Shown here piece by piece: positions 1 through 21,144 of a DNA stretch of 64,000 nt. Position 1 is the stretch's first letter; every line of letters starts with the position of its first letter. The notes below the pieces were generated by a model. That model was given only the letters and a program-made list of their open reading frames with translations. It searched no databases and was not told where the DNA came from. Source of the DNA: Oligoflexales bacterium (GTDB lineage: Bacteria; Bdellovibrionota_B; Oligoflexia; Oligoflexales; RGVZ01); assembly GCA_947494335.1 (NCBI GenBank), contig CANLUT010000001.1, forward strand, positions 1,233,649-1,297,648, given 5' to 3'. A program made the translations under genes and the position numbers.

Positions 1-3000
1 ACGTCGTCGTCGCACCATTTGGTGCAGCTGTATGCGCCGACCATGTATAAGATTGATTATTTAAGTCAGTATCGATACCGGTAGCTATGTTGTTACCATA
101 GTCATATGCCACGAGATTGAACGTGTCAGCCACGCCGGCCTCATTGATAGGGCTAAAGTTTTCTAGTGCATAGTAGTAAACCATGTCCTTATGCGCTGAA
201 TAGTTGTGGAAGGTCTGCGTATAGTACCCTGCATGGGTATGCCCTTTCACCTCGTACTCAATCACATGGTTACCACTGCGGTGGAACATGTTGGACATCG
301 TCGTACCACCAGATTGATTGGTGTCAACTGAGAAAATTTTGTTTGTCACGAGCAAGGTCACAGGATTCTGCTCGAGGAAACCAGCATTTGTCGCTGTACC
401 GGAAACATACTTAGGCTCTACTGTGGATGATGACTGTCCCGACGCCTTAGGGTTGCGATACTGATCATAGGCCTGGATCACCAGGTTGAACTTATCCGAC
501 GCTGACGCCACTACTGGGGCTGGTGAGCCAGCTGCGCCCGTACAATTAGTAGTAGGATTAGAAACCTTGGTGCAAGTAATCGAATACTTCAGAGTGGTGC
601 CTGGCGCCACTGTGGTTGCGTTGGTTGTATTTGCCGACTGCAATACTGGGGACTGATCGTCCTTGATATTCAAGTAAAGATTTGACTCAGCCTTGGTAAA
701 TCTCAAGGTTGCCAAAGACGTACCAGCTGCAAAAGATAGCTTTGGACCAGCTAAGGTTGGAGCCGAGGAGTCGGGGGCAAGATGAGCCGTCGACATCGCC
801 AAGCCCGCGCCGTCAATCCATGTGAAGTTAAGATTACTCAAATCCGCATCAGCACCAACGACTGTTGCATTGGCACTATCGCGAGCAAACACCTGCACCA
901 CAAAGTCCTGACCTGCCACCACGTTGTTCGGAGCGGTTACAACGTAGTTTTTAACAGTCTTGCGGGAGCCTTCCGCGTACAATAGCGTGGAAACCGGTGC
1001 TGGAAGAATGGATTTTGTTCCATCCGTCACTTTCACATAGAAACTTGATCCACCGAAGTCGACGGCTAAATTGTTAACTGTGACGCTGTTCGCCCCACTT
1101 AGACTCTTAGAGAGGCACGATGCATCATTGCCAGGAGCCTCGCAAATCAATTGACGCGATATCGCCGTAGAAGCGTCGGCCGCGACTAAACTAAGAGTCA
1201 GACTCTTCGTGACGCTGATATCATTACCATGCACGTCTCGGGCTTTGACGGTGATGTTGAATCGATTCCCACCAGCACTAGCGAGAACATTCGTCGTGCC
1301 TGGGTCCGCCCAGCCGCGGGTACTATTTGGCTGAGGAGTATTGGCCACGCCCGATGCGATCGAGGCATAGTGATGCAACGCGCCGGCTGTTACGGTGAAT
1401 CGGTCAAGGCCTTGACCAGAAATCATTCTACCGCTCTGCATGTTGTCCTGGTAAGAAAGCTGCACGATTGAGTTCGATATGTATGACCCAGCGCTCTTCA
1501 CTTTCGCGTAAATATTTGCACAACCAGACGTAAACTGGATGGTCTTAAATCCAAACCCAAATAACTTACCTGACGTCTCAAAATCCGCACCAGTCCCTGT
1601 CGAGAAATCAACAGTGCGGCCTTCGGCATTCGCCTGAATTCCAAGAGACGTAAAGTTAATAGACAGAGCGGCATTAGGATCGGTGATAACCACATCGTCA
1701 CTTGTCGTCACCGTGCCTTTATCGTCAATCACCTGCTCAGTAATCACACTTTGACCGGAGTCTACCATACAAATCTTAACCGGAATTTCATCACCAGCAT
1801 TGAGGGCTGTGATTGGAGAAAACGGCAAGCTTGTTGATGAGACATCAAATCGAGCCAGCGGCGAAGCTTTGATTGTGATTAGATCGCTGACGCCAGTAAT
1901 TCCGTCCTTAACTGCTTGAATCTTAAACGAGCCAGCACGCTTTGGACGCCAAAGGAGATAGTTTTCAAGGTTAAAAGGCACCTCGAGCAACCCACTTCGC
2001 GAGGCATTAACAAAAGAAAACACATTTCCTTTATCACAGTTACCAATATTACCGAGAATGTCAAAGTTACAAGCGTATGTGAAGATGTCACGATTTAGAT
2101 CCGGCAGCAAAGGATACACCTGCCCGCGAGCTGGATCAGAATCAAAGATCGCTGGGAAGTTCGATGTTGTATATGGAAGAGATGCTTGACTCTGTCCAGC
2201 CATCACTTTAGTCACAACCGATGGGCCAGTAGCCGTTGTAATGTCTAGTGTTTGACTGATAACCTGTACACCAGTGGTTGGACAATTGCCGGACGTCTGA
2301 CACCAAGCGATAGAAGCATTGTCAACCATTTTTAAATTCAATGTATTTTTTACATTTGCGAGCGGAAGTCGCGATCTTTCGGCCTCAAGAATATTCGATA
2401 TAGTATTTGTGGCGGGGTACCTATTAGGCACCAAAGGAATGGTTCTTGAGATAGCCGTAGCCTCAGAATTGTGAACCCCCCCAGTGTCACCGACAAACGT
2501 TGGCTGAGTGCCATCTGGGGCATTACCAGGGGTTGCTGACCAATAAAGTTTGAGAGTTCTACTTACCGGATAATACTTGCCATCTCCTGTTTCATTACCA
2601 AATTGATCAACCAGGGTCACAATAAAACCAAAGTAACTGAGGGCCGTGGAATTTGCATCGCCCGTGCGGGTTATATTCAAACGGTGGCCCACACCCGGAA
2701 CACCATACATAAATAAGGCGCCACTGGTCTCGGGATTATTGACCTGAAGATGGTGTTGACCTGCAGTCCTTGCCAATGGCTCATTATAAACGTTGATAGA
2801 TGCTGAGCCGAGAGCACCGGGGGTGCCCTTCACGACCTGAACAGCCGGCAAAGTTGCGGATGACACTCCAAATCCGTCGGCAGAGCCAGGCTTAATATAG
2901 TTGTGGGCGTAATCGTGCGTGTGCCAATAAAAGGTCTGTTTGCCGCATAGACCGCCAAATTGAGCCGATGGTATCGTCGGAACAATACATTGATCGGTTA

Positions 3001-6000
3001 CGCCAATCTCTAGTTGAACAAAAAACGGATCTGATACGACAAATTCTGGGTTAAAAACATTGTCGGCCTTGACGGCGTGCAAGTGACTAATACCATTCCT
3101 GTAGCTCGTAAAATAATCTTGGTGCGTATGCGCGGTCGCAACACTTCCAATGGTTGCATTGTTTGGACCAACAAATCGAACTCCTGCACCGCGAGAGACC
3201 ATTAACGGATGGTTTTGGCCGTCGATGGTTTTAGCGGGGAGTTCGACCTGAAGATATCGGTCTGTGCTCGGATTCTGAGTGTTATAGTTCGACGCTGTTT
3301 GACCAACGAATAGACACACGTCACCCGGCATGACAAGCTCTCCGGACGCAATGGACACATTGCCGTACCACCAATCTTTCAACGAATTTCCATTACCTGA
3401 AGCATCAGTAGAGTTATTGAAACCTCCACCTTCAGCGGCAGTTGCATTAGCAATTTTGAATGCGGGAGTATAAGGGCCCGGGAGATCTGGCTTATTATGG
3501 TTTATGTAGTAGCCACTCGATTGTTGCCCCAACTGCATAGACGTCAGGAAGCTAAAATCTCCCGCCTTATCGTCAGCCATACCAGAGGGGCTTGACGCGT
3601 CTGGCTTAATCAGCTTGAGGGCCGCTTTTGCGACTGTAGAGTAGCTTTCGATCTGGTTATGCTTGCGATCATGCAAGAATACGCGCACTTTGTTACACTC
3701 ACCAGCAGCTACATTCGCATTATTGCGCGCCGGATTGGTCGTGCTAGACAAAACAACCTCAGTATGCTCTACAAGTCCGGCTCGCAAATCGATGTAAGGC
3801 GATGGCCATCCAATCAGTCCACTGTTCGTCGCAGACTTAACGACAGCATATCCAGTCCCGACGCGATTTTGCGGAACAAACACGGTTGTATAAAGAGTCG
3901 TGCTGCGATTTGCACCAATGTCAATAGAACTTGATTCGCTCGCTGGATCATAAAACTTCTTGGCGGTCGGCAACAGTCCATCACTTGGATTTGAATTCGC
4001 TACGAACATATTAGACACAGGATAAGCGGTCGCCGTCCACTCACCCGTTTGATCGTTAAAATAAGTTGAATAAACGCGGTCCGTGGAAATAAACCCATCG
4101 TAAACCAATTGATCATACGCTGCTGCGTCCCGGATAAAATTACCAGCCACGTCCGTAATCGCTATACCGAAAGGAACTTCCTGGTCCGCCGTCATGGTGT
4201 AGCCCGCTGGCAATGATAACGGTGTTTGAACAACAGCGCTCACACACGACGGATTCACCGGAGACACTGGGCACGGACCACCCTTTTTGTTCGCAAAGAA
4301 TATTCTCTTCTCTGTACCAATCGCCGCAGGAACCAGCTTCGCCCATGCACCGGTGATCTCACCAGCTGGCGTCAGCTGCTCCACTGAAATAGACGCTGAT
4401 GCACGAACATCAGTTAATTTGTAGGTCGATGGCAGAACGCATAGACCACTGGCAAAGGTGCATGACAGTGTTCCGTTTGGCAATGCGGGCGTCAAGCCGG
4501 CCCAACTTGGAGCCGCCGAACTGACCACGTCAAAGGATTTCGCGCCTGTATATGTGGGAACAACTGTGTTGGTTGCATCAAGCGCCTGCAACTGGATCTT
4601 GAACTCAAGTCCAGCCATAATGGGCGGTGTCAAAACTGAATTGTCTGTTGCATTCAGGAAGGCTAGGCCGAATTTGATCGCCGCACCTGAAGTAAATTGT
4701 AAGGCAGGACTTAGGGCTGCTTTCACGTTGGCTAGAGGCTGCTGAGCGACTGTGTCATAGGGGATCGCTAAAATGCGTCCATATCCCGCAACACCAACAG
4801 ACTGCAACTTACTTGATGTTCCAAGCTTGTTTGACAGGCCGCGGTTAAACCCGCAGAACACTTCGTTTTTGTCGGCCGTGATTGGCTGATTCGAGCGATC
4901 AGTGTTCGGTGCTGGACAGGTTGTGCCATCGTTGTAGCTTGATGGATTAGCTGCACCAAGCACTGTCAAAGCCGCGGTAAGTCCAGAGCTTGTTGAAGTT
5001 GCTGCAGAGGTGTCATCAAACGAATCCCTGACACCCCAGAATTTAGCCTGAACTTCTCCTGTATAGTTTGCGCCCGCATCATAGCCAGCAACAAAGAAGT
5101 CATAGCGCTGGTCGTTACTGAGCGACAAATCCGCTCCCGTCTTATCTTTCCAATTTGTACCAAATCCACCGGCAGCTTCACGCAGGATTGTCTGAGTCAC
5201 ATCACCGTTAACAATCGAAACGGGTTTAGGAGCGCGCATAACCAGATTTGCATTAGATGCAGAGACGAAGTTAATCTTTGGCTGACTTTCACCAATTTGC
5301 AGGTTTGGCACCTTACGGACGCGGAATGTACCGACCGTCGTTGCAACACCATTTGTAAAGGCGAGAGGCGTTGTGACATGGTCGATCGTCGTGACATCAC
5401 TAGCCAGTACCGACAGGCCGGTTTGCAAAATCGGTGAGTAAACAGGACCGATTGTCAATGACATCGGCAATGAACCGTTAAATTCGTTACATTGATTATA
5501 CTTGGCGTCAAACACCGTGACCACGGACTTGAAATCCGACGCCGCTTTTTCACTGCCGATTGTTGAATAGTTCTGGGAAACGGCTTCGATAATCTTCGGA
5601 GCACCGGCCTTCGCTGTCATCGTCACGCTACCAGTAAAGGACTGTTTTCCAGAGCCATCGACATTAGGACAGTTGGTTGGGCTTGCTGCACAGAATGACA
5701 TCGCCGCTTTATCTTCCAATAGGAAGTTCAGTGTTGCGACCTCGTTCGCCTTTGCGATACGCGTGTAATCACCTGATTGGGAGTTACTCAAACTAATCTG
5801 TAAATTTTGAGACCCAGACAACGTGATGGTTCTGGCCACAGGTGATGCTGCTACATAATCTCCACCGCCTTCCCCAGCCGTCACAGGCTCAATTCCATCT
5901 GGTGATGGAGAGATCGCTGAAGACCAGTAAATCTTCAAATTTCGTTCAACTGGGTAATACTGATAATTACCGGTCAAGTTGTTGTATTGGTCCTCAAGAC

Positions 6001-9000
6001 GAATATCAAATCCAGAGCTCGTATCGGTGGTAAGAGGTGTCGCGCCAGTACGTGTGACAACCATATGATGACCTGGCCCTGGAATGCCGCTAAAGTAGAA
6101 GACTGAGCCCGGTTTTTGCGCCGCTGCTAGCTCATTGTTTGTAGCCGTGACTGCATGATCGCCTGCGGTGCGACTTAAGGAGCTGGAGTAGAGGTCAACG
6201 GTTCCAAACCCACTGGATGATCCAACAGTGAATTCCGTTGATGGTAAGCTTGCAGACGATGAAATTCCGAATCCTAATGGGTTACCTGGTCGCAGATAGT
6301 TGTGAGCCTCGTCATGAGTATGCCAGTAGATCTTCTGGGTACCGCAAATGGACAACGGACATGCCTGTGACACACCCATTGCCACTCTGTTGCTCGCGCT
6401 ATTGACGTTTGCCACCAAGTTCGGTGTCGCAGCACTGGATGCAAAGGCTGGGTGCAAGTGATGAATAGTTCCACGCTTAATGATCAATTTGTCAGACGTA
6501 TGGGCATGTGGAGTGGCGCGACTTACGATATCGCCCAATGGACCCGTAAATGTCAGACCCGAACCGCGAGACGCTATAGCAGGCTGTTGTGTACCAATAG
6601 CCTTCAAGTCAACCTGCAAGAATCTCCAGTCTTGAGGGTTGCCCGAACTAAATGTATCTGTATTTTGACCAGAGTAGAGGCATAACTGTCCAGGAACGTC
6701 GATGACACCGCCAGAGGTCAACATCAACTTGGAATACCAATCCTTGATCGGCAGACCAGAGCCGGACCCATCATCGTATGCGTAGCCACCACCATCGCTA
6801 GCAACTGCTCCAGGGATCACAAAGGATGGACTGTATGGACCTGGATAATCAGGCTTGTTGTGATTTAGGTAATAATCACGTGACTGCATGCCTTCTGCCA
6901 TAGCTGTGATGAAATCGAAATCCATTGCTTTTAAGTCTGCAACACCGGATGGATTCGCATTATTTGCTTTAATGAGTTTTAAAGCGACGATGTTTGAGCT
7001 TGGATAATTGCTCACCAAATTGTGCTTGCGGTCGTGGAGGAAAATCTTGACCTTATTACACACTCCAGCCGTAATGTTTGAATTATTTACCGTAGCATCT
7101 GACGCATTATAAACTTTTGTCTCAACGTGTTCGACCAAACCCGGCACGATTTGGAACCACGGTGAAGGCCAGCTAATCCATGCTGGATTGTTTTGCGAAC
7201 GAACCACTGCATATCCCTGTCCCACGCGATTTTGCGGCACATAAACCGCTGTATAGAGAAACGGTGTTGCCTTGAATGCTGAGGTTTCGATGATTGATGC
7301 ATCAGTGGCATCTTTCGGATTGTAGAATTTCTTAGGCGTAGCCAACAAGCCTGCCGCTGGTGATGCGTTCGCAACAAACAAATCATCCACAGCATAGGAG
7401 TATCCCGAAGCCCAGTTTCCGATTTCTTGATCGTAAATTCCCTCAAGGCTATTGCTGCTGTTGCTAAATCCTTCAAAAATCAGCTGATCGTTCGTGATAT
7501 CAGCATTGCGCAGATAGTTTCCAGCAATGTCGGTTACGGCTACTGCAAGAGCGATTTCCTCGGTAGCTTTCTTTTCCCCAAATCCAGTCGGACGTTTTGT
7601 GGCCGTCTCTACAACAGCCCCTTGTGTCGGTCCACCTATCTTACTTGCAAAGAACAGGCGCGCCGCCACCGTATCTGCAACGACATCAAATATTTGATTA
7701 TTCGACGACAACCCGCCCTCACCAGGCAGCACAACTGCCATGGTAGGTTCCGATAAGGCGTCGGTGAAATAATAGTCGTTTGGAAGTGAACAGACACCCT
7801 CATTGAATGTACACGTGAAGGTTCCGTTGGGCACGCTTGCTTTGACATAGCCCCAGCTGCGCTCTGCTGCAGTTGTAAACGTCAAACTTCGAGCACCTGA
7901 ATAAGTACGAGAGTCTACCCCTGCATCATCAACAGCATGGACAAACACCTTAAATGTCTTACCTGCGGTGACGGCAGCTGGTATAGTTGTGATACCGTTC
8001 GACTCACGAAGCTCAATAACAAATCTCGTTGCAATACCTGAAAGGAAAGAAATCTCGGGAGACAGTGCCGTGCTAATCGCAATTGAATCAGGAATTGCCA
8101 ACACGCGACCAGTGCCAGAGATACCAGCTGACTTCAAGATTGTGCTTGCTCCTGCTTTAGTCTGCAAGCTTCTATGAGTTCCGCAATATAACCGGTTACC
8201 CACAGGCTGATTCGTTGGTCCAACGTCAGGCACTGGACAATCCTGTGCTGTTGCGTAAGAAGACGTCTCAGCCCTTAAAAGATCAATCGCTGCTGTCAGT
8301 CCAGATCCGGCTGCGTCTGCATCATTGAAGGACGATCTGACACCCCAGAACTTCGATGGAATATCGGCTGTGTAGTTAGCACCCGCATCGTATCCTGCGA
8401 CAAAAAACGAATACTGCTGGTCATTGGATAGCTCTTGAGGCGACGTTAAAGACTTCCAAATGGTTCCTTTTCCACCGGCCTCCTGACGGAGTAATGACTG
8501 CGACGTTGGGCCTGGGACAATCGTTAACTGTATTGGTTTGCGCATATTGAGAGCGCCGTCTGTATCACTAACCAACATAATCTTCGGATGAAGTTCAGCT
8601 GGGCCTGCTGTCACATCAGGAACTTTAGAGACCACAAAAGATCCTGGGGTCGTACCCGTTCCGTTCGTGATAGTCATGCCCGTCGATGTATAATCCAAGG
8701 TCTTAACGATCGTAACGGAATTTGTTACGCCTACAGGCGGAGCTGGCGTGTAGGTGTTATCCAACTCAAGCTTAACTTTAATCGTTCCTGAGAAACTATT
8801 GACTGGATTGTATTTGTCGTCGAATAAGCTGACAAGCCCCTTAAATGGCACTGTCGCCTGCTCAACCATTACCGTGCCAACGGCGTGCTCTGGCTTGACT
8901 TCGATGACTGCGGGCACACCGTGCAGCGCGGTCAGATTCAATGTTGCACTCACCGACTGAACACCAGATCCCGCTGGCGAGGCACATGCATTTGCCAAAC

Positions 9001-12000: not shown

Positions 12001-15000
12001 TTGTGATCGGCGTACCGGTGTGATCAAGCTCAGAATTAGCCGTGGCAGTAACGCTAAGACCCGTTGGAGGTACAGGTGTGTAAATCTGGTCGAGCTTAAT
12101 CTTCACGCTAAGCGGATCATTGTAGGCGTCTGCTAAATTGTACTTCTCATCAAATAGGGCCACCTTAACTTTGAATGGAACTGTCGCCTCCTCGATGGCA
12201 ATTGCTCCATTGATATGCTCGGGCTTCAGCTCGACCACACTTGGCACACCGTGCTTAGCCGTTAGCGCGATCGATGTGGACACTGCCATCACTCCACCAC
12301 TTGGAGCCGATGGACATGCGTTAGCCGTTGAACACAGAGTGACGGCTGCCGAATCGGTCAACTTGAAGTTCAAAGTGACTGGCTCATTTGTTTTCGCCAA
12401 CTGCGTTGCATCACCGGCAACGGTGCCGCTGAGAGTGTAATCAAACTCAAATCCCGGATCCAACGCGACAGACTTCATCACGGCATTTGAGAGTCCTGCG
12501 CGGTTACCGCCAACTTGCCCCAGCAATGTTGGCTTTGAACCGTCTGGAGAATTTGAAGGGTTTGCCGTCCAATAAGCGGCGATCGTGCGATCAACAGGGT
12601 AGTACTCTTTGTTACCAGTGATATTGCCGTATGCATCAAGCAACTCAAGTTTAAAGCCAATCTTCTCATCAGTGGTGAAGTTCGGCATCGAACCACCAAC
12701 ACGAGTCACCCTTAAGCTTGCGCCGGGTCCCGGAATACCTTTAATGTGCACGGTTCCAGGATTTGCAGTCGTTGCAGTGTTGCGCGCGGTAATCGAGTGA
12801 CTTCCAGCCGTGTGAGCTCCGCTTGTATTGTAATAAATCTCTGAATAGGGAGAACCACCGCCATTGGTTATACTTCTGAATTCTGCTGCAGGAAGAGTGC
12901 CAGGAGAGGACGTAAAGCCCAAATCCGAGGTTGCTCCAAAATAGTTGTGCGCAATATCGTGCGTATGCCAGTAGACCTTTTGGAGACCGCATTTGCCGAT
13001 TGAAGCAACGCATGGATCGGTCACACCAATTTTCAGAGGATTTTTTGCGGCATCATTGTGACTATCAACAAGCACCGCACTGACTGCATTGTCCACGAAC
13101 GTCGCGTGTAAGTGGTGGGCAGACGTGCGTTTATAGACTGTGAATTTGTCTTGATGCAGCACATGGGCGGTGGCGGTACTACCGACAGTCGCGCCATTCT
13201 TACCAACGAACGTAACGCCCGGTCCGCGAGATACTAGAGCCCGGAAGTTAACACTACCCATGGTGTTTGCTGGCAAATCAACCTGAAGGAATCGCTCAGC
13301 AAACGGCTCAGCAGCAACATAGTTAGCAGCGGTTTGGCCGTCGTATAAACAAACCGAGCCAGGAACAGCAAATTCGCCAGAGGCGACTGTTACATCACCC
13401 GACCACCAGTCTTTGATCGGTAGACTTATGAAATTTGGATGCGTGAAGATAAAGTTACCACCCGAGCTCGCTACAGCATTCGGAATATCAAATGCCGGGC
13501 TGTATGGTCCAGGTAGCTCAGGTGCGTTGTGGGTTGCATAGTAGTCGCGCGCAGCAGCGTCGCCAGCTTGCATCGCCGTGATCGCCGCAAAGTCACCAGC
13601 CTGTGCGTCAGCCACACCTGGCTTCATTAACTTGAGAGCCACTTTCGTAAGGCCCGAGTAATTTGTAAGGATGTTATGTTTGCGGTCGTGAATAATTACT
13701 TTTACTTTATTACACTCGCCAGCAAGGACGTTGGCGTTGTTTCGCGTCGCATCTGTGGCGCTGTAAAGAACGGTCTCGGTATGCTCAATCGCACCCGGGG
13801 TGACCGTGATCCGCGGTGATGGCCAAGAAATCAGTGAATTAGATTTTACTACAGCGTACCCGCTACCTAGGCGATTCTGTGGTACGTACACCGCATCATA
13901 CAGCGCACCATCTTGCAACGCTGTTGTTTGGATGGCAGGCAAATCAGCAGCGTCACTCGGGTTGTAGAACTTTTTAGGGGTCGGCACAGCACCATTGGCC
14001 GTTGATGGGTCTGCGATAAACAAGTCACTGGCCGTATAGGTACCGGTCCACTGACCTTGAATACTATCGAAGAGGGACGCGATGTTAGCTGTATCAGATT
14101 TATACCCTTCAATGCGTACGAAATCAGCCGCTGTTGCCGCGCGGAGATAGTTACCACCAATGTCCGTAACAGCGAGGGCGAAGCCCTTCTCCTCATCAGC
14201 TGTAATGGTATATCCTGCCGGAACCGTGTCTGGCGTGAGGACGGTTGCACCATCTGCAGGAGCCCCTAGCTTACTTACAAAATAAATTCGAGCGGGATCA
14301 CTCCTCTGTGTGAATATGTCAAAGGACCAGTCTCCCGGAACACCGCCCGCCGTGGATTCAGCAACGGTGATCGTTTCCTTTTGATCAAAGTTAGCCACTT
14401 TATAACCAACACCGGCAGCCGGACCAGGAATCTCACATACACCGGCGGCAAATGTACAGGTCTTCAAACCATTGGGGAGAAAAGCTTTGATTTTACCCCA
14501 GCTTGCTACTGGCGTATTTGAAAAATTGAGAACTTTGATTCCATTATAGCTAACAGCATCAGCGTTGTTTGAATCCTTCGCATGGACAATAATCCTAAAT
14601 TGCAGACCAGCAGGAATCGGAGACGACAACGCCTCACCCGTCATCTTCTTATACTCAAGAGTGAAATGAGTCGGCATACCCGTAAAGTCAAAAATTGGTG
14701 AGAGTGCAACTGCGATTGAACTTGTCGTAGGAATCGCAAGCAAACGCCCTGGGCCCTTGTCACCAATCGATACGAATTCAGCCGAGTCGCCTTCGAAATT
14801 AATCAAACTTCGGTGCACACCGCAGAACAACTGATTACTTAGCGGCTGGTTGGTTGGGTTCGAAGCTGAGTCAGGGTCAGGGCATTGAGCCAGAGGGCCA
14901 TAATATGCAGGACCGTTTGTATTACCACGCAATGACTGTGCAAAAATATTTAAGTTGGATAGCCCTGCGGAGTCGTCATTGAATGATGGGGCAATACCCC

Positions 15001-18000
15001 AGAATTTTGCGGGGACATCCGCATTGTAGTTACCTGCAGCGTCAAATCCAGCAACATAGAAACGATAGTTCGTGCTCGGAGAGATCGCTAGTCGATCACT
15101 GTTCGCAATCGACTTCAAGATGTTGCCACCATTGCGAGCAGCATTACGCAGAACGGTCTGAGTGATAGGACCTGGTACAATCGTCACGCGCGTCGGGTTG
15201 AGTAGTGTGTAGCCGGCCGTCACATCACCCAACAATATCTGTGGGTGAACTTCGTTCTGAGCTGCATTCGGAACTTTCTTCACAGTGAATTGTCCCCCGG
15301 ACAATCCATATCCATTGGATATTGTCATCGGTATCGCAGAGTGATCGATGACATCGACGAGTGAGCTGGTATCCGTGATTCCAGTGACAGACGTGAGGTT
15401 TGGCTGGTAAACTGGGTCTAACTTGAATTTGATCGCAAGACTACCCGAGTATGTCGTTGCAGGGTTATATTTCGCATCAAACACATTTACATGAACTTTG
15501 AACGGGACTGTGGCTTGCTCTTCAAACTTGCTTCCGACCCTATTCTCCGGTTGAACTTCGATAACCTTGGGCACACCGTGACCCGCATTTAGATTCAGAG
15601 ATTTTGTAAAGCTCTGTGGACCCGGGTTGTCATCAAGCTTAAAGTTTAAAGTCAGATTTTCTCCGGCCTTGGCGATTTTGGTCCAATCGGTAGATAACGT
15701 TGGACTAAGAGACAGCTCCATCAATTGACCCGTGGTCAGCACAATATTTCGCGTCACTGGCGAGCTGATGGTGTGCACGCCGCCAACCTCGCCAACCAGA
15801 ACAGGGGTTACACCGCCAGGCGAGTTTTGCGGATTGGTCGTCCAATAAGCCGAAAGTCTGCGATCGACAGAGTAATACGTTTTATCACCAGTTACGTTCT
15901 CAAACTCGTCGTAAAGCTTGATATCAAATCCCAGAGAGTGATCTGTAGTCAATGTCTCGCCTTGTGGGACACCGGTCATGACAGCATCAATGTGATGGCC
16001 GGCACCAGCAATACCCTCAAAGTAAAATTTATTTTCTTTAGCACCGAGGGCTGCATTTTTGACTGTCACATCATGCAGACCTGACTTTCTGGATGCGCCA
16101 CTATAGATGACCGTCGAGGGTGAACCAAGCACCCCAGGGGCACCCGTAGCCGCTTGTCCTGCGGGGAGACTAGTCGTTAGATTTAAAGTCCCAGCTGCGG
16201 GTCCAATTAAGTTATGGGCCTCGTCGTGACTGTGCCAGTATAGGGTCTGCGATCCGCAAATACCACCAGCTGTTGTAATTGACGCAGCACATGACTGATC
16301 AACACCAATCTTGACGCGGTGGTTGGTCGCATTGTTGTGACTATCGACCAGCTTTGGATCAGCTACATCGTCCTGGAAAGCAGCGTGCAGGTGATCTATA
16401 GCCTTTCTGAACACCTTGAATGTATCGCCGTTGTTATGCGTGTGGGCCGTCGCAGAACTTCCCATCTGCACATTACCAGCACCCGTGAAGGTCACACCTG
16501 CACCACGAGAAACCAGTTTTGAAAACGCTACCCCGTTAAGCGTCACAGCAGGTAGTTCAACCTGAAGGACCCGTTCGGTAAATGGAGAAACAGCCCCTGC
16601 TGCGTAGCTAGACTGGCCAGAGTACAAACAAACATCTCCCGGCAATTGGAGTTCACCTTCCACCACCTGGGTAGCCCCAGTCCAGAAGTCTTTTATCGGT
16701 AAAGACGTAAATGACGGATGATTGAAGATAAAGTTACCGCCCGACGATGGGTCAGGATCGACGACGCTAAAGGCGCTATTGTATGGACCAGGAACCTCAG
16801 ATTTGTTCTGGTCTGCATATAGATCACGAGCCGCAGAGGTGCTCTGCTTCAGACCGTAAATAAAATCAATGTCTCCACCTTTGGTATCAGCAGCACCAAC
16901 TTTAAAGAGTTTAAACACAACCTTTGACACTGGGGTCGTATAGGTTGTGATGACGTTGTGCTTTTTGTCGTGAAGAAAGACTTTAACCTTGCTGCATGAG
17001 CCAGCCTGGATTGCACTGTTGTTGGGTGTCGCATCCGATGGACTGGTCATCGCAATCGTCTCAATATGCTCAACATCACCAAAGTTGATCGTGATCAGTG
17101 GCGACGGCCAGGCAATGAATGTAGGATTCGCCGTCGATTTAATGACTGCAAATCCGCGACCTGTGCGATTTTGTGGAATCAAAACTGTTGAGTATAAATT
17201 TACATTTTCATAAGCTGAATTTTCGATGATCGCTTGATCGGCTGTGACGGCCGGATCATAAAACTTCTTGGGCGTCGCAGCGCCTGCCACAAACAAGTCA
17301 CTTTCTGTAAACTGAGGCACGCTATTATCGTATGCCTTCCAATCGCCTGTCAGATAGTTGAATTGATCGGCATAGGTTCCGTTTGTGGTGGCAAATCCAG
17401 AGTAGGATAGACCGTCACCGCCATCGGCGTTCCGAAGGAAGTTACCTGCGATATCCGTCACCGCAACGGCAAAAGGCATTTCCTCGGTTGTCTTCATAGA
17501 CAAGCCAGCAGCAGTCGTCTCGGGTGTCAGAGCTTTCGCGCCGGCATCTGGGCCACCTTTTTTATCGGCGAAGAAATAGCGGCCAGCCACACCAACTTGC
17601 ACAGGGACCAAGTCACTGTATGCTCCGCCCGGGGACGGGTTAACTCCAGCATCCCATGATAAAAGCTGAACCGTGACTGATGTGTCCGGCGTGGTTGGAA
17701 AGGTTGCTGCAGGGTGGCTTGCGGCCGAGAACCAGTAAGGGCCGCCCGGCAAGGTACATTTACCGTTTTCAAAGGTACATTCCAAATCACCATTGGGAAG
17801 CTTTGGCGCCATACCAGCCCAGCTCTTTGGCAAGGTGCTCACAACTTTAATTTTACGCGCCTTACCGTAGGTCGGATGAGCATCGGGATAAGAAGGAACA
17901 TCGATATTACTTCCGTCTTTTGCGTGAAGCACAATTTGGAATGCTTCACCCGCTGTGATCGGGAATCTGGCTGGTGTCGCTGTGTCTGGACGCACCGCCT

Positions 18001-20329
18001 CGCGCAACGTAGAGCTGTCTGAGGCTTTCACAAACTCGATAGCTAATTTCTCAGCGCGACCAGCTGTCGTCGAAAGTGGACGCGACACGTTCCATGCGAC
18101 GGTCGGATAAGCAAGCGGCAGGGCGATAACTCGTCCGCTACCCGCTACACCCGCGGAGTTGTAAGTTGAGTTCTTTCCTGCTTTGACGGCTAGACCAAGG
18201 TGAATGGCGCAAGCCATGACATCTGAGTTGACAGTAGCTCCATTGCCCGGACAATTACTGGTCGACGTAAAGGCTGAAGGGTTGCCAGGAATAAGTTGGG
18301 CCACGGCCGACTCGATGGCTCCATCGGGCAGAGTGTCATCGAAGACGTGTGCATCGTTCAAAGCATCGCTGATGCCCCAAAACTCACTATCCACATCTTC
18401 TTTGTAGTTTCCGCCTGCATCATAGCCGGCGTTGAAGAATGTAAATGTCTGATCGTTTGGCAGAGGCTTTACGTCGGCACCACGCCAAGTTTCGCCCTTA
18501 CCATCTGTCGCCGTTCTCAAGACGGTCTGCGTTACAGGACCAGGAGACAATGAGATCGTTAGGGGATCCCGAACTTGGACTTCAGATACTGGAGCTGACG
18601 TATTCGCTAATATGAACGAATTGTTGACAAGGTTGATCTTCGGACCTTGCTGAGGCGTTCCGAGAACTGAATCATTCACGGCGGGATCAGGAACTCTTAA
18701 CACGTTGAATTTCTCAACAGTCTGTGCCCTACCCGCAACAATGACTAATGGATTTGTATCGTGATCGATGATGCTATTGGCCTCTGCCATTACGCGCAAG
18801 CCTGCAAGAGTCATAACCTCCTTAGCGGGAGGAGCGTAAACTGGAGATAACTGCAACTTCAACTTGATATCGCCATTAAAGTTGTCGCAAAGGTTACCAT
18901 TTTTATCGTACAGCACCACGTTTGCTGCAAAGGGGACGGTCGCCTTTTCAGCGGCAACGCTTCCAACGGTATTCTCCGAGGTGATATTAATCGCTGCGGG
19001 TGAACCAGGGTAGACCATGTAAGTGATGGTCCGTTCAATAATCGGGATGGACGTGGTTTTGATAATCACTGTTCCTGGCCCAGACAAGATAGGATCGATT
19101 GTTTGCATACTTTGACGCAAATTCACCGCGCCGAGACGACCGCTTAAGCGACCGCTGTCAACCCAGTCTGTATCCATCGTGCTGACAAAGTTGCCACCCG
19201 CATCCACCAAAACAGGATAGTATTTGTAAGAGTCGCCGGAAACCATAGAGAGACACTCGCGCGACGCGTCGTTGATCTCGTTACAAACGTCTTGGATCGG
19301 CTGATCTGGTGGATTTTTAGATAAGACAATTCGCGATGCGTCACCAGTAACGACCGGAATTCTGATAGAGGCCGTCTTGACCGGCAGTTTCGGATTTGTC
19401 GGCTTGGCGGTAATCGTGATGATCGTTGGCTTTAGAACTTTGAACGGCGCACCCGGAACGAGACACTGATCGTTGAAGAAGTCACAGGAGATATCACTGC
19501 CTGTCGCTCCGCCGGGCACGATGACTAATTTGCCATCGACAACGTCGTTGACATTCTCCGTCTTGAAGTTAAAAGAAAATCCTTTTCCAACTTCTGTGTT
19601 CGGGATGCCAGGTGCCGTTAACACCACACTGAAAGGTGTGCCGGCTTTGATGACTTGTTTGCCGTCTTTGTCGTAAAGAGCAGGCAGGATCATAATGGCA
19701 GAATCGAGAGGATCGATACCGCTATTGATGAACTCTTCATTAGAGGTGATATCAATTTTGTAATACTGGATAAGATCTGAAGCGAGCGATCCCTGAGGAA
19801 CCCGCATCGCAACCGCAATTTTTGCCGCTGGCATGTTCGGAGTTGTGAAACCCACGTGGGCCTGGCCGAACTGGTTGGAAATCGCTGAGCCACCAACGAG
19901 AATACCAACACAGTTTTCGCGGTAAGCTCCCGCCATGCAGGTTGTTCCAGCTAAGGTGCCATCTGCTTGCATGACAAAATCACCGCCGTTCCAGCCGGCA
20001 AGAATTTTCTCTTTAATCACATTCTCCGGAAGACCTGCGTTGACTGCGTCTGTAATTAAGAAAGCTTTAAACTCAGCCTGTACGCCTGGAATCGCCTGTC
20101 CTGATTTACTTTTGACTGTGTAGTAAAGATTTTTCGTGAGTTTAAAATTCGGCGGATACGGATTTTGTAATTCCGTTGTCTCAGCTTTAAATTCAGAACC
20201 TGATTTTGCCTGATTTGCCGTCTTTGTTCCTTTGGAGCAGGCAGCAGATACAAACATGACCCCAGCCAACGCCGCCACAAAGGACACGCGAAGTCCTAAC
20301 ATGCTAAAGATGTTAAGTTTTTGCCCCAT
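1..20329 (-). CDS. Giant repeat-containing predicted lipoprotein/surface protein, C-terminus beyond the window
   Basis: Reading the minus strand from ATG 20329 gives at least 6776 codons with no stop up to the left edge, so the gene is cut by the window. The start is supported by AGAAGG five bases upstream. Residues 1-31 form a signal peptide ending in SAAC, a slightly atypical lipobox that would lipidate Cys31. Residues of about 32-440 are unique; about 442-6034 are five tandem units of about 1.1 kaa; from about 6034 on is a different Ig-like C-terminal region. Units begin with a filamin/Big-like segment (consensus VIEVxPE...EQATVPFKV) and contain blocks such as YVPQNRxGxGYAVVKS, PIKDWWSG and YWHTHDxAHN. 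It is most likely exported and surface-exposed, but I do not recognise a named family; an adhesin-like or structural surface protein is inference. It is transcribed divergently from the operon at 20548. Confidence 0.9.
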   Translation of the reverse strand, partial: MGQKLNIFSMLGLRVSFVAALAGVMFVSAACSKGTKTANQAKSGSEFKAETTELQNPYPPNFKLTKNLYYTVKSKSGQAIPGVQAEFKAFLITDAVNAGLPENVIKEKILAGWNGGDFVMQADGTLAGTTCMAGAYRENCVGILVGGSAISNQFGQAHVGFTTPNMPAAKIAVAMRVPQGSLASDLIQYYKIDITSNEEFINSGIDPLDSAIMILPALYDKDGKQVIKAGTPFSVVLTAPGIPNTEVGKGFSFNFKTENVNDVVDGKLVIVPGGATGSDISCDFFNDQCLVPGAPFKVLKPTIITITAKPTNPKLPVKTASIRIPVVTGDASRIVLSKNPPDQPIQDVCNEINDASRECLSMVSGDSYKYYPVLVDAGGNFVSTMDTDWVDSGRLSGRLGAVNLRQSMQTIDPILSGPGTVIIKTTSIPIIERTITYMVYPGSPAAINITSENTVGSVAAEKATVPFAANVVLYDKNGNLCDNFNGDIKLKLQLSPVYAPPAKEVMTLAGLRVMAEANSIIDHDTNPLVIVAGRAQTVEKFNVLRVPDPAVNDSVLGTPQQGPKINLVNNSFILANTSAPVSEVQVRDPLTISLSPGPVTQTVLRTATDGKGETWRGADVKPLPNDQTFTFFNAGYDAGGNYKEDVDSEFWGISDALNDAHVFDDTLPDGAIESAVAQLIPGNPSAFTSTSNCPGNGATVNSDVMACAIHLGLAVKAGKNSTYNSAGVAGSGRVIALPLAYPTVAWNVSRPLSTTAGRAEKLAIEFVKASDSSTLREAVRPDTATPARFPITAGEAFQIVLHAKDGSNIDVPSYPDAHPTYGKARKIKVVSTLPKSWAGMAPKLPNGDLECTFENGKCTLPGGPYWFSAASHPAATFPTTPDTSVTVQLLSWDAGVNPSPGGAYSDLVPVQVGVAGRYFFADKKGGPDAGAKALTPETTAAGLSMKTTEEMPFAVAVTDIAGNFLRNADGGDGLSYSGFATTNGTYADQFNYLTGDWKAYDNSVPQFTESDLFVAGAATPKKFYDPAVTADQAIIENSAYENVNLYSTVLIPQNRTGRGFAVIKSTANPTFIAWPSPLITINFGDVEHIETIAMTSPSDATPNNSAIQAGSCSKVKVFLHDKKHNVITTYTTPVSKVVFKLFKVGAADTKGGDIDFIYGLKQSTSAARDLYADQNKSEVPGPYNSAFSVVDPDPSSGGNFIFNHPSFTSLPIKDFWTGATQVVEGELQLPGDVCLYSGQSSYAAGAVSPFTERVLQVELPAVTLNGVAFSKLVSRGAGVTFTGAGNVQMGSSATAHTHNNGDTFKVFRKAIDHLHAAFQDDVADPKLVDSHNNATNHRVKIGVDQSCAASITTAGGICGSQTLYWHSHDEAHNLIGPAAGTLNLTTSLPAGQAATGAPGVLGSPSTVIYSGASRKSGLHDVTVKNAALGAKENKFYFEGIAGAGHHIDAVMTGVPQGETLTTDHSLGFDIKLYDEFENVTGDKTYYSVDRRLSAYWTTNPQNSPGGVTPVLVGEVGGVHTISSPVTRNIVLTTGQLMELSLSPTLSTDWTKIAKAGENLTLNFKLDDNPGPQSFTKSLNLNAGHGVPKVIEVQPENRVGSKFEEQATVPFKVHVNVFDAKYNPATTYSGSLAIKFKLDPVYQPNLTSVTGITDTSSLVDVIDHSAIPMTISNGYGLSGGQFTVKKVPNAAQNEVHPQILLGDVTAGYTLLNPTRVTIVPGPITQTVLRNAARNGGNILKSIANSDRLAISPSTNYRFYVAGFDAAGNYNADVPAKFWGIAPSFNDDSAGLSNLNIFAQSLRGNTNGPAYYGPLAQCPDPDSASNPTNQPLSNQLFCGVHRSLINFEGDSAEFVSIGDKGPGRLLAIPTTSSIAVALSPIFDFTGMPTHFTLEYKKMTGEALSSPIPAGLQFRIIVHAKDSNNADAVSYNGIKVLNFSNTPVASWGKIKAFLPNGLKTCTFAAGVCEIPGPAAGVGYKVANFDQKETITVAESTAGGVPGDWSFDIFTQRSDPARIYFVSKLGAPADGATVLTPDTVPAGYTITADEEKGFALAVTDIGGNYLRAATAADFVRIEGYKSDTANIASLFDSIQGQWTGTYTASDLFIADPSTANGAVPTPKKFYNPSDAADLPAIQTTALQDGALYDAVYVPQNRLGSGYAVVKSNSLISWPSPRITVTPGAIEHTETVLYSATDATRNNANVLAGECNKVKVIIHDRKHNILTNYSGLTKVALKLMKPGVADAQAGDFAAITAMQAGDAAARDYYATHNAPELPGPYSPAFDIPNAVASSGGNFIFTHPNFISLPIKDWWSGDVTVASGEFAVPGSVCLYDGQTAANYVAAEPFAERFLQVDLPANTMGSVNFRALVSRGPGVTFVGKNGATVGSTATAHVLHQDKFTVYKRTSAHHLHATFVDNAVSAVLVDSHNDAAKNPLKIGVTDPCVASIGKCGLQKVYWHTHDIAHNYFGATSDLGFTSSPGTLPAAEFRSITNGGGSPYSEIYYNTSGAHTAGSHSITARNTATTANPGTVHIKGIPGPGASLRVTRVGGSMPNFTTDEKIGFKLELLDAYGNITGNKEYYPVDRTIAAYWTANPSNSPDGSKPTLLGQVGGNRAGLSNAVMKSVALDPGFEFDYTLSGTVAGDATQLAKTNEPVTLNFKLTDSAAVTLCSTANACPSAPSGGVMAVSTSIALTAKHGVPSVVELKPEHINGAIAIEEATVPFKVKVALFDEKYNLADAYNDPLSVKIKLDQIYTPVPPTGLSVTATANSELDHTGTPITIAGGQGTTTQEFTVLKVPNAGAGEQHPKIVLGNVSAGLTLRNPTIVTIVPGPVTQTVLRDAGSGQGSILKDLGQITINNDANYRWYLAGYDAAANFKQDVEGKFFGVNQNLDDNDPVGSGFNAAVTLLSGKVPGNYLTPEECPDPGEPAALFATIFCGIHRGLLTSTGTMSQFKSVGNFGPGKIIAIPNSGAKATLSPLMSFEAGAADHFTFEFRDATTDSIYASGIPAGTPFNIRIQARDSTETIAVTYTGSKTFNVESSGPQSFGQLSPTLPTGSLSCTFASGVCTLPGSYVVTTIKNTTVTPVVNDATVRVTQTSPTTTIPSASTAVPATASAAARIYFADKNGGPNAGAKVQTPGTVPGGISLTADQEKAFVVVITDAGGNYIGEATSDDNLVYEGLSASSSNLSGLFDAATGDWLTPYTVSDLFVANSSPLSGLLPTAKKFYDPSTEGASIATAAFKVTGAYNTVYVPQNRIGSGFAVVKSGTLKTWPSPLITVTAGAIEHVETVLFDPNNAARNNGNVVAGECNKVRVFVHDKKHNLRTDYTGTTQVGLKLFKIDAANPTGMDDPYAGDFSYISTMQSGDDAARDYYKTRNAPEIPGPFNSAFKIVGAAANSGGNFIFTHPAFTGLEIKDWWSGQVAASAGEIVMPGSVCLYSGQTAANQPQLNPSTQRILQVDLPSNAFTAGNFPALTSRGAGIVYKGPGNADRGSVATAHSHGDKFTILRGAKHHLHATFTDNDMMTPDLVANYNDAQKAPVKIGVENVCHTGIGRCGIQTVYWHTHDSAHNYISPGSASGITLNSSLPSGQITQVTNNTTTLRSLATKIYDASIRTSGTQSVTIANDQVAMGTSALYFTGIPGPGKTLDVARIVDPAKPNFTTDDSIGFTVKLRDQYGNITGNKDYYPADRELALYWTKTNESVSPSNSPDGTVPTLMGFAGTNRTTVANAAKRLVALTGSSDFDYTLSPTMASDHTKIVKSDEAVSITFKLTDTSTMPICGLANACASPAGSGVQSVSATLNLTALHGVPAVIEVKPEHAVGTVMVEQATVPFKGLVSLFDDKYNPVNSFSGTIKVKLELDNTYTPAPPVGVTNSVTIVKTLDYTSTGMTITNGTGTTPGSFVVSKVPDVTAGPAELHPKIMLVSDTDGALNMRKPIQLTIVPGPTSQSLLRQEAGGKGTIWKSLTSPQELSNDQQYSFFVAGYDAGANYTADIPSKFWGVRSSFNDADAAGSGLTAAIDLLRAETSSYATAQDCPVPDVGPTNQPVGNRLYCGTHRSLQTKAGASTILKSAGISGTGRVLAIPDSIAISTALSPEISFLSGIATRFVIELRESNGITTIPAAVTAGKTFKVFVHAVDDAGVDSRTYSGARSLTFTTAAERSWGYVKASVPNGTFTCTFNEGVCSLPNDYYFTDALSEPTMAVVLPGEGGLSSNNQIFDVVADTVAARLFFASKIGGPTQGAVVETATKRPTGFGEKKATEEIALAVAVTDIAGNYLRNADITNDQLIFEGFSNSSNSLEGIYDQEIGNWASGYSYAVDDLFVANASPAAGLLATPKKFYNPKDATDASIIETSAFKATPFLYTAVYVPQNRVGQGYAVVRSQNNPAWISWPSPWFQIVPGLVEHVETKVYNASDATVNNSNITAGVCNKVKIFLHDRKHNLVSNYPSSNIVALKLIKANNANPSGVADLKAMDFDFITAMAEGMQSRDYYLNHNKPDYPGPYSPSFVIPGAVASDGGGYAYDDGSGSGLPIKDWYSKLMLTSGGVIDVPGQLCLYSGQNTDTFSSGNPQDWRFLQVDLKAIGTQQPAIASRGSGLTFTGPLGDIVSRATPHAHTSDKLIIKRGTIHHLHPAFASSAATPNLVANVNSASNRVAMGVSQACPLSICGTQKIYWHTHDEAHNYLRPGNPLGFGISSSASLPSTEFTVGSSSGFGTVDLYSSSLSRTAGDHAVTATNNELAAAQKPGSVFYFSGIPGPGHHMVVTRTGATPLTTDTSSGFDIRLEDQYNNLTGNYQYYPVERNLKIYWSSAISPSPDGIEPVTAGEGGGDYVAASPVARTITLSGSQNLQISLSNSQSGDYTRIAKANEVATLNFLLEDKAAMSFCAASPTNCPNVDGSGKQSFTGSVTMTAKAGAPKIIEAVSQNYSTIGSEKAASDFKSVVTVFDAKYNQCNEFNGSLPMSLTIGPVYSPILQTGLSVLASDVTTIDHVTTPLAFTNGVATTVGTFRVRKVPNLQIGESQPKINFVSASNANLVMRAPKPVSIVNGDVTQTILREAAGGFGTNWKDKTGADLSLSNDQRYDFFVAGYDAGANYTGEVQAKFWGVRDSFDDTSAATSTSSGLTAALTVLGAANPSSYNDGTTCPAPNTDRSNQPITADKNEVFCGFNRGLSNKLGTSSKLQSVGVAGYGRILAIPYDTVAQQPLANVKAALSPALQFTSGAAIKFGLAFLNATDNSVLTPPIMAGLEFKIQLQALDATNTVVPTYTGAKSFDVVSSAAPSWAGLTPALPNGTLSCTFASGLCVLPSTYKLTDVRASASISVEQLTPAGEITGAWAKLVPAAIGTEKRIFFANKKGGPCPVSPVNPSCVSAVVQTPLSLPAGYTMTADQEVPFGIAITDVAGNFIRDAAAYDQLVYDGFISTDRVYSTYFNDQTGEWTATAYPVSNMFVANSNPSDGLLPTAKKFYDPASESSSIDIGANRSTTLYTTVFVPQNRVGTGYAVVKSATNSGLIGWPSPYIDLRAGLVEHTEVVLSSTTNPARNNANVAAGECNKVRVFLHDRKHNQIESYSTVAKAALKLIKPDASSPSGMADDKAGDFSFLTSMQLGQQSSGYYINHNKPDLPGPYTPAFKIANATAAEGGGFNNSTDASGNGNSLKDWWYGNVSIASGELVMPGDVCLFVGQTASNYNTQNPSTDRYLQVELPAKTIDGQNHPLMVSRGAGVRFVGPNNATIGSVATAHTHQDYFTSYRNGISHLHAVKADNVFNPEFVVSDPFFVQLEIGVTDQCIVPTIPSAQFGGLCGKQTFYWHTHDYAHNYIKPGSADGFGVSSATLPAVQVVKGTPGALGSASINVYNEPLARTAGQHHLQVNNPETSGALFMYGVPGVGHRLNITRTGDANSTALSYFGFIVTLVDQFGNETGDGKYYPVSRTLKLYWSATPGNAPDGTQPTFVGDTGGVHNSEATAISRTIPLVPNRYPATNTISNILEAERSRLPLANVKNTLNLKMVDNASIAWCQTSGNCPTTGVQVISQTLDITTATGPSVVTKVMAGQSQASLPYTTSNFPAIFDSDPARGQVYPLLPDLNRDIFTYACNFDILGNIGNCDKGNVFSFVNASRSGLLEVPFNLENYLLWRPKRAGSFKIQAVKDGITGVSDLITIKASPLARFDVSSTSLPFSPITALNAGDEIPVKICMVDSGQSVITEQVIDDKGTVTTSDDVVITDPNAALSINFTSLGIQANAEGRTVDFSTGTGADFETSGKLFGFGFKTIQFTSGCANIYAKVKSAGSYISNSIVQLSYQDNMQSGRMISGQGLDRFTVTAGALHHYASIASGVANTPQPNSTRGWADPGTTNVLASAGGNRFNITVKARDVHGNDISVTKSLTLSLVAADASTAISRQLICEAPGNDASCLSKSLSGANSVTVNNLAVDFGGSSFYVKVTDGTKSILPAPVSTLLYAEGSRKTVKNYVVTAPNNVVAGQDFVVQVFARDSANATVVGADADLSNLNFTWIDGAGLAMSTAHLAPDSSAPTLAGPKLSFAAGTSLATLRFTKAESNLYLNIKDDQSPVLQSANTTNATTVAPGTTLKYSITCTKVSNPTTNCTGAAGSPAPVVASASDKFNLVIQAYDQYRNPKASGQSSSTVEPKYVSGTATNAGFLEQNPVTLLVTNKIFSVDTNQSGGTTMSNMFHRSGNHVIEYEVKGHTHAGYYTQTFHNYSAHKDMVYYYALENFSPINEAGVADTFNLVAYDYGNNIATGIDTDLNNQSYTWSAHTAAPNGATTT
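2229..5611 (-). repeat. Repeat unit 5 of the giant protein (most diverged)
   Basis: This is the last unit, about 1127 codons, beginning at AGAPKIIEAVSQ. It contains VTQTILREA near 5190, AHTHQDYF and SHLHA near 3070-3140, and YWHTHDYAHN near 2900-2940. The Ig-like segment that opens a unit is not repeated after it. At TGPSVVTKVM the protein passes into an unrelated C-terminal region. Confidence 0.8.
5612..8922 (-). repeat. Repeat unit 4 of the giant protein
   Basis: This is the fourth unit, about 1103 codons, beginning at HGVPAVIEVKPE. It contains the diverged GPTSQSLLR near 8500, PHAHTSDKL and HHLHPAF near 6440-6500, and YWHTHDEAHN near 6310-6340. Confidence 0.85.
8923..12252 (-). repeat. 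Repeat unit 3 of the giant protein
   Basis: This is the third unit, about 1110 codons, beginning at HGVPSVVELKPE. It contains GPVTQTVLR near 11838, HHLHATF near 9800 and YWHTHDSAHN near 9640. Confidence 0.85.
12253..15580 (-). repeat. Repeat unit 2 of the giant protein
   Basis: This is the second unit, about 1109 codons, beginning at HGVPKVIEVQPE. It contains GPITQTVLR near 15160, HHLHATF near 13100 and YWHTHDIAHN near 12960. The period to the next unit is about 3.33 kb. Confidence 0.85.
15581..19005 (-). repeat. Repeat unit 1 of the giant protein
   Basis: This is the first of five in-frame units, about 1140 codons. Boundaries are placed by eye at the segment reading PAAINITSEN and are good to perhaps 30 bases. 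It contains GPVTQTVLR near 18530, the AHTH...DHLHA patch near 16390-16460 and YWHSHDEAHN near 16220-16240. Its middle shows several short insertions relative to the later units. Confidence 0.85.
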
Positions 20330-20446
20330 TCTTACCTTCTGCGAGCTCCAAAACTCCTTTGACACCAGCGACTTAGAGCCTTTTCGGGCACTAATCCGCC
20401 ATGTAATGATGCTCGGTTCAGCTTTAAAGTAACTTTAGCCCGGGGG

Positions 20447-20476: not shown

Positions 20477-20547
20477 TATAAAAGTTAGCAAAAAAATTTT
20501 TGGTGATTTCTAAAGTTTTTGCGGGGTTACCCGAGGGGGCGCAACCG

Positions 20548-21144
20548 ATGGCTAAGGGGTTAGTCTCAAAGTTACTTTTGCCGGCCTTTATTATTTTTGC
20601 CAACGCCTGTGCGGGCACTCTCAATGTCCGAACAAACCCGAGTGAGGCGGAACTTGTACTGGTCCAACCGGGAAAAGTCGACTCCAAGCCGCTTGGTAAA
20701 ACTCCCTACACTGCCAAAATCAGTGACCTGGGTTCTGCGGCTAATGGCGGACCCATCGTGCTGCAGGTCTCAAAAAAGGGCTTTATGCCGCAGAGCCTTT
20801 ACATACCGAATGCCGCGGGCTCAAAACTTGATTTCGATGTGAATCTTAAACCAGTCAGCCCGGGTAGCTTTGATGAGATGAATCGTATCATTAAACTGGT
20901 TTTGGCTGCCGAGCGACAAATCATGCTCAAACAAGTCGATGAAGCCATCAAGACAGCCGACGCGATCAAAGCGATCAACGACAACATTGCCATGGCCTAC
21001 GAAATTGAGGCGGCTGCTCAATTTGTCAAAGGTGATTTGCAAAAAGCACGTGTTGCTTGGAATCGGTCACTAGCGATCGACCCGGAAAATCCCGATGCAG
21101 CGCGCATGATTAAAACTATCGACGAAAAGCTTGGAACTAAATAA
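20548..21144 (+). CDS. Exported PEGA-domain and TPR protein
   Basis: The 198-residue protein starts at ATG 20548, preceded by GAGGGGG at 8 bases. An earlier in-frame start at 20500 has no comparable ribosome site. The N-terminus is a hydrophobic signal segment ending FANACAG, so the protein is either a lipoprotein or cleaved by signal peptidase I. Residues of about 24-105 resemble a PEGA domain: GTLNVRTNPSEAEL, then LGKTPYTAKISDL, then a GGPIVLQVSKKGF strand. Residues of about 110-195 are helical with a TPR-like motif (GDLQKARVAWNRSLAIDPENPDA). PEGA modules are known from surface and envelope proteins. It is the first gene of a four-gene operon divergent from the giant lipoprotein, so a role in assembling or anchoring that protein is possible but is inference only. 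Confidence 0.75.
   Translation: MAKGLVSKLLLPAFIIFANACAGTLNVRTNPSEAELVLVQPGKVDSKPLGKTPYTAKISDLGSAANGGPIVLQVSKKGFMPQSLYIPNAAGSKLDFDVNLKPVSPGSFDEMNRIIKLVLAAERQIMLKQVDEAIKTADAIKAINDNIAMAYEIEAAAQFVKGDLQKARVAWNRSLAIDPENPDAARMIKTIDEKLGTK

Follow-up and report, generated by a model that had tools for sequence, protein, structure and literature searches.

What does a bacterial gene encode when its reading frame fills 20.3 kb and still runs out of the DNA under study, and with which cellular machinery might its product work? The window, the whole stretch of 64,000 nucleotides analysed here, lies at positions 1,233,649-1,297,648 on a 1.31-Mb contig of an 8-contig assembly that is 97% complete (genome G000). 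It was compared within a set of 58 genomes of the phylum, all of one class, a make-up that would fit the Oligoflexia-type Bdellovibrionota lineage of GTDB.

Architecture of the giant lipoprotein

The minus-strand frame is open from position 20329 to the left edge of the window without an inner stop, as had been stated in the sequence-only reading, and the leftward extension that was then proposed places the stop at L002:14686, 5,315 bases left of window base 1. The gene spans 25.7 kb. Counted from the ATG at 20329, with AAGG six bases upstream, the product has 8,547 aa; counted from the GTG at 20365, the longest possible start, it has 8,559 aa. The former figure of at least 6776 residues is correct as a lower bound and a large underestimate of the full protein. 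The proposed place with the larger surface proteins of bacteria is borne out as regards size, SprB having ~6,500 aa (PMC13104615). No internal stop or frameshift is seen in the whole 8,547 codons, and the chance of so long an open frame from base composition alone is minute (log10 P ~ -186). The giant lipoprotein gene is genuine. Its features are as follows, with the residues of the units counted from GTG 20365.

1..20329, minus strand: giant lipoprotein gene, 5' 20.3 kb, continuing 5,315 bases left of the window
20237..20329, minus strand: signal peptide MGQKLNIFSMLGLRVSFVAALAGVMFVSAA with lipidation Cys and Ser at +2; Cys-Ser invariant in six homologs
19007..20236, minus strand: N-terminal region, ~400 aa (profiles A2/A9), in 6 of 58 genomes
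15578..19006, minus strand: unit 1, residues 454-1596 (self-BLAST and alignment)
12251..15577, minus strand: unit 2, residues 1597-2705 (self-BLAST and alignment)
8921..12250, minus strand: unit 3, residues 2706-3815 (self-BLAST and alignment)
5606..8920, minus strand: unit 4, residues 3816-4920 (self-BLAST and alignment)
2147..5605, minus strand: unit 5, residues 4921-6073, end more divergent (self-BLAST and alignment)
1..2146, minus strand: start of the C-terminal repeat region, residues 6074 on, to residue ~8459 left of the window

The lipoprotein-like signal peptide noticed earlier carries the lipobox VSAAC-S, in which the lipidation Cys is residue 43 counted from the GTG. The Cys-Ser pair at its end is invariant in all six homologs, which come from two orders. 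A lipobox Cys is present and an Asp at +2 absent, as in outer-membrane lipoproteins, and Ser at +2 would be expected to direct sorting to the outer membrane. The N-terminal region is conserved across the same two orders and contains a 'CxFxxxxC.LPG' subdomain, copies of which are also present in the units: the C-x6-C of 'LPNGxLxCTFASGVCxLPG' is found there and once per unit. Cysteines elsewhere in the protein also recur at matching places, most clearly for C-x6-C, a pattern to be expected in an oxidising compartment.

Five tandem in-frame units of about 1.1 kaa had been described from the sequence. They are recovered by self-BLAST of the protein, at offsets of ~1,091-1,143 aa, and are colinear over their whole length in alignment A1. 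The units are 1,105-1,153 aa long, all five in frame, and pairwise identity is 39-48% for amino acids, 49-54% for nucleotides and 31-35% at third codon positions. Because third positions are almost randomised, the units are old duplications, kept in frame by selection. At this divergence they would not confuse an assembler, so that a collapsed assembly is no concern, and the long-read check of unit number once suggested is hardly needed for sequences that share only ~50% of their nucleotides. The array stops before the window edge, at ~base 2147. Past it and out of the window lies a different, Ig-like repeat region with weak periods near 260 and 105 aa; in all, ~2,500 residues of other repeats follow the five units and lead to a short C-terminal tip of ~100 aa after residue ~8459. 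Ala, Thr, Ser and Gly are abundant in the sequence.

In Pfam and NCBIfam scans the giant has no match above cut-off, whether in the units, the N-terminus or the C-terminus, and a profile of the units finds no relative among PDB sequences at E up to 5, in line with the earlier remark that no described family has this unit. The sequence family looks undescribed, being absent from Pfam, NCBIfam and PDB. Below cut-off, there is an OmpL47-type match near the C-terminus (E 7.5e-4) and a weak Lcl_C-like match of the tip (E 0.02), on which an Lcl_C/FGE-like lectin fold of the tip would be unproven. An AlphaFold2 model of one unit, made with six sequences, predicts an all-beta, Ig-like structure at low confidence (pLDDT 47). 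Its Foldseek matches are weak and scattered among multi-Ig proteins and adhesins, with E. coli alpha-2-macroglobulin at the top (probability 0.23, low TM-scores). Naming the fold beyond all-beta was abandoned, as this pLDDT is too poor. From this model and its matches, we infer that the giant may be a string of Ig-like beta-sandwich domains, about 80 of Ig size.

As a protein, it is a new family within a known kind, the giant Ig-like surface lipoproteins. Leptospiral Lig proteins are lipoproteins with Ig-like repeats of the Big_2 type, of ~90 aa. They share with the giant a lipoprotein signal and tandem Ig-like domains, whereas its unit measures ~1.1 kaa and a search of all its parts finds no Big_2 (PF02368) at E up to 1. 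Adhesins of the RTX/LapA type are likewise large and repetitive, so that size, repeats and a proposed adhesive role are common to both. However, the giant has a Sec/lipoprotein signal at its N-terminus and no type I secretion genes next door, and Pfam/NCBIfam scans find in it no RTX repeats, retention module or T1SS signal.

Relatives and gene neighbourhood

Profiles detect the N-terminal domain in only six of the 58 genomes (G000, G010, G018, G040, G047 and G048). The colinear ortholog of G010, a Lake Erken MAG (CAIMVM010000252.1), has 4,908 aa. It carries one copy of the 1.1-kaa unit against five in G000, and two copies of the block of residues 6048-6950, which G000 has once. The tips also differ, weakly BNR-like in G010 and, as above, Lcl_C-like in G000. 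In the other order, G047 encodes a relative of 6,943 aa with its own three tandem blocks of ~420 aa. The relatives in G048, G040 and G018 are cut by contig ends; a second G018 contig opens with 634 aa that resemble the G047 protein and are read as the probable C-terminal end of the G018 giant. A scan of genome contigs found only the Lake Erken MAG ortholog, and a plasmid search no relative. These comparisons show block duplication to be lineage-specific on a conserved frame.

Two plus-strand genes adjoin the giant in the window.

20500..21144, plus strand: PEGA/TPR lipoprotein gene, divergent neighbour, with orthologs in other giant-bearing genomes
21163..21813, plus strand: putative small outer-membrane beta-barrel gene, with signal peptide and C-terminal ...NSYLF

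The PEGA/TPR orthologs are linked to the giant and/or to a MotAB/FliG-like cluster (next section), and barrel orthologs adjoin PEGA in G010, G018, G047 and G048. In G047 and G048 the PEGA/barrel pair directly precedes the giant, and in G000 it lies next to it; when the 58 genomes are ranked for PEGA, the two with a giant that lie outside the PEGA profile take places 5 and 6. A gene for an FKBP-type prolyl isomerase begins on the same strand as the giant ~20 bases past its stop, which fits the export and folding of a proline-containing beta protein. Further downstream on that strand (L002:10609-13883) are genes for an SBP_bac_5-like protein and two unnamed proteins, whose orthologs adjoin the G010 giant (22-28% identity). 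The same three genes are found in the fragmented genome G002 (L043, L044), there beside pst genes too.

The window holds other genes of note. An alpha-type carbonic anhydrase (21829-22782, plus strand; PF00194, E 1e-24) comes right after the barrel gene. The product of 27482-29461 on the minus strand is a lipoprotein that combines a Big_2-like region with a von Willebrand A domain (PF25106, PF13519). An antisense ORF of VDEVVDE repeats (57995-58648, minus strand) lies inside 57729-59444 (plus strand), and is a simple tandem repeat within this gene for a 571-aa lipoprotein.

A MotA/MotB/FliG-like gene set linked to the giant

In G000 a motor cluster lies ~0.5 Mb from the giant and lacks PEGA and barrel genes.

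L099:4657-13599 (G000:C1 ~712.6-721.6 kb): non-flagellar-looking cluster of MotA, MotB and a membrane-anchored FliG-like protein, FecR-like and HAMP-SpoIIE genes included

Its proteins contain MotA_ExbB (PF01618, E 1e-20) and MotB_plug with OmpA (PF13677, E 1e-15; PF00691, E 2e-16). Like clusters are present at L075, L076, L077, L041, L042, L092 and L135, with several paralogous copies in G018. G000 has another MotA/MotB pair at L100:485-10637 (G000:C2), together with a 789-aa exported protein, a 529-aa protein and a 1,448-aa lipoprotein.

The motor protein of these clusters, of 590-820 aa, is FliG-like in its middle and C-terminal domains, the fold that it has in common with the flagellar rotor protein. 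FliG_C is above the Pfam cut-off in the proteins of G040, G047, G048 and G011; the G000 protein alone has no Pfam FliG_C match. A 12-sequence profile of the motor protein finds solved FliG in the PDB at E 2e-20, hhalign gives 97.8% against FliG paralogs, and the predicted structure of the G000 copy, whose C-terminal part has a pLDDT of ~85, is matched by Foldseek to FliG with probability 1.00 and to FliF only weakly. The two predicted membrane helices would place the FliG part in the cytoplasm and the N-terminal coiled-coil part in the periplasm. In its size, its membrane helices and this periplasmic part the protein differs from FliG, as it does in being encoded with MotA/MotB outside flagellar operons and also in flagellin-less genomes. 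G011 and G028, which are 93-96% complete, have no detected flagellin and keep the FliG-like protein, MotA and MotB.

In G028 (L140:7685-10892) a 592-aa FliG_C-containing protein is encoded directly before MotA and MotB. Most genomes of the class have about eight flagellin paralogs; none are found in 8 of the 58, which are spread over several families.

The cluster points to a MotA/MotB/FliG-like gene set outside flagella. A search of the available literature found no description of such a set, and part of the text of a 2025 survey of MotAB homologs (PMC12505986) makes no mention of it; this flagellum-like motor set and its link to the giant look undescribed. In flagellated members the MotA/MotB set could still serve the flagellum.

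A FliG-like gene is linked to the giant in four of the six giant genomes, mostly with MotA and MotB. Giant, PEGA and FliG-like genes occur together in G047, G048, G040 and G018, with barrel, MotA and MotB also present as far as the contigs reach. One 17-kb contig of G018 holds the PEGA/barrel pair, MotA, MotB, a 751-aa protein and the giant's end, and one 4.3-kb contig of G040 the giant's start, a 683-aa protein and PEGA. In G010 the PEGA/barrel pair lies within a cluster of MotA, MotB, FecR-like and HAMP-SpoIIE genes and a 764-aa protein, and the giant is on a different contig. The linkage is found in three independent lineages of five, which has a rough chance of 3e-4 under the assumption of a 3% background of nearby genes. 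A long FliG-like protein is present in all six giant genomes (hypergeometric P ~1e-3 to 6e-3, a value that is partly circular, the profile having been built with some of these genomes). The giant occurs in only 6 of the 58 genomes, against ~20-24 for the long FliG-like protein.

Other PEGA loci adjoin different large lipoproteins (FN3, FG-GAP, Big) or none. The link between giant and PEGA may therefore be loose. The pattern also looks as though one module might serve a range of fibres. Such large lipoproteins are only modestly enriched near PEGA loci relative to 20 control regions, and an initial claim of strong enrichment was reduced after this control. G042 has a different large lipoprotein in such a place (L087:10720-17313), a 2,197-aa FN3 protein with a C-terminal FGE-sulfatase-like domain, encoded divergently from a PEGA gene. 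A supposedly clean absence of the barrel-giant-500-aa block in G044 was also dropped, the flanking 369-aa genes of G047 and G044 having no BLAST similarity.

A surface fibre and its possible motor

Together, the gene linkage suggests a motor-driven adhesion machine. In the reading that we prefer, with a probability of roughly 0.5, the giant is an outer-membrane-anchored multi-Ig adhesive fibre that works with the PEGA/barrel pair and is probably served by the MotA-MotB-FliG-like motor. The protein would be exported by Sec, lipidated and sorted to the outer membrane, so as to present, from a lipid-anchored N-terminus, a long string of Ig-like domains in duplicated blocks and a lineage-specific C-terminal tip. 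On the cell surface it would form a fibre of a few hundred nanometres, adhering to surfaces or other cells through tip and repeats. The PEGA/TPR lipoprotein, the small barrel and the giant would make up an outer-membrane module, on which the ion-driven motor may act mechanically via PEGA/TPR and barrel. The motor genes lie in one cluster with those of the module in other genomes, and at a locus of their own (L099) in G000. Force transmission would be of a gliding type. Surface exposure, fibre shape, adhesion and motor coupling are all proposed from sequence. A more specific version, a non-flagellar rotary machine of a new kind in which the MotA/MotB stator turns the membrane-anchored FliG-like rotor and so acts through PEGA/TPR and barrel on the fibre, is speculative and, as it stands, rather unlikely.

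Two known systems offer parallels. The SprB-type gliding adhesins of Bacteroidota are, like the giant, thousands of residues long, rich in repeats and proposed to form a surface filament (PMC13104615). SprB is also associated with an ion-driven motor, a likeness that gene linkage suggests for the giant. However, SprB is secreted by the T9SS and its motor is GldLM, whereas the giant is lipid-anchored via a signal peptide II site and its linked motor is of the MotAB/FliG-like type. Profile searches find its unit unrelated to SprB, and Pfam/NCBIfam scans of its C-terminal 1,770 aa find no T9SS sorting domain. In the AglRQS/Glt/CglB system of Myxococcota, a MotAB-type ion-driven motor is thought to act on an outer-membrane adhesin, as proposed here. 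CglB differs in being a small VWA-domain protein, and the Agl motors are TolQR/ExbBD-like, in contrast to the MotA/MotB pair and membrane-anchored FliG-like protein.

The main rival is a passive surface adhesin or a biofilm or coat fibre, to which no force is applied, the vicinity of motor genes being mere co-location of envelope genes. Most giant surface proteins with many Ig domains are adhesins, these genomes are rich in large lipoproteins, some of them in the control regions too, and in G000 and G010 the motor genes lie far from the giant. This reading is a real possibility, if the less probable of the two: the linkage to PEGA, barrel and FliG-like genes recurs in two orders, and the presence of a long FliG-like protein in every giant genome speaks against it, with the partial circularity stated above.

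It is improbable that the giant is a periplasmic or envelope-spanning tether or trap (alpha-2-macroglobulin-like, or an elastic spacer) that is not exposed outside. A lipoprotein does remain in the periplasm if it is not flipped out, the adjacent gene encodes a periplasmic prolyl isomerase, and the top Foldseek match, though weak, is alpha-2-macroglobulin. Nevertheless, this match has a probability of only 0.23 on a poor model, the Pfam/NCBIfam scans show no alpha-2-macroglobulin family, and some 80 Ig-size domains far exceed the width of the periplasm. Still less credible is a component of the flagellum or its sheath, with the MotA/MotB/FliG-like set as a second flagellar stator and rotor. 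The eight flagellins and three FliG_C proteins of G000 would be consistent with it, but the set is kept in flagellin-less G011 and G028, and the long FliG-like protein is, unlike FliG, membrane-anchored with a periplasmic part. An assembly or gene-calling artefact (collapsed or expanded repeats, fused genes) can be dismissed, error-prone as huge repetitive genes are, given units only 49-54% identical in DNA, 8,547 codons without a stop and continuous relatives of 4,908 and 6,943 aa from independent assemblies.

With the giant, the largest bacterial lipoproteins gain a sequence family that Pfam, NCBIfam and the PDB do not contain. These proteins grow by duplication of whole 0.9-1.1-kaa blocks at places that differ between lineages, while the N-terminus and the gene neighbourhood stay. 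The gliding motor and adhesin of Bdellovibrionota have been described as unknown (PMC13104615). If the rotary machine were real, it would be a candidate for both in Bdellovibrio-like bacteria, and, if the lineage is indeed related to Bdellovibrionota, the giant and its linked genes are concrete targets for deletion and labelling.
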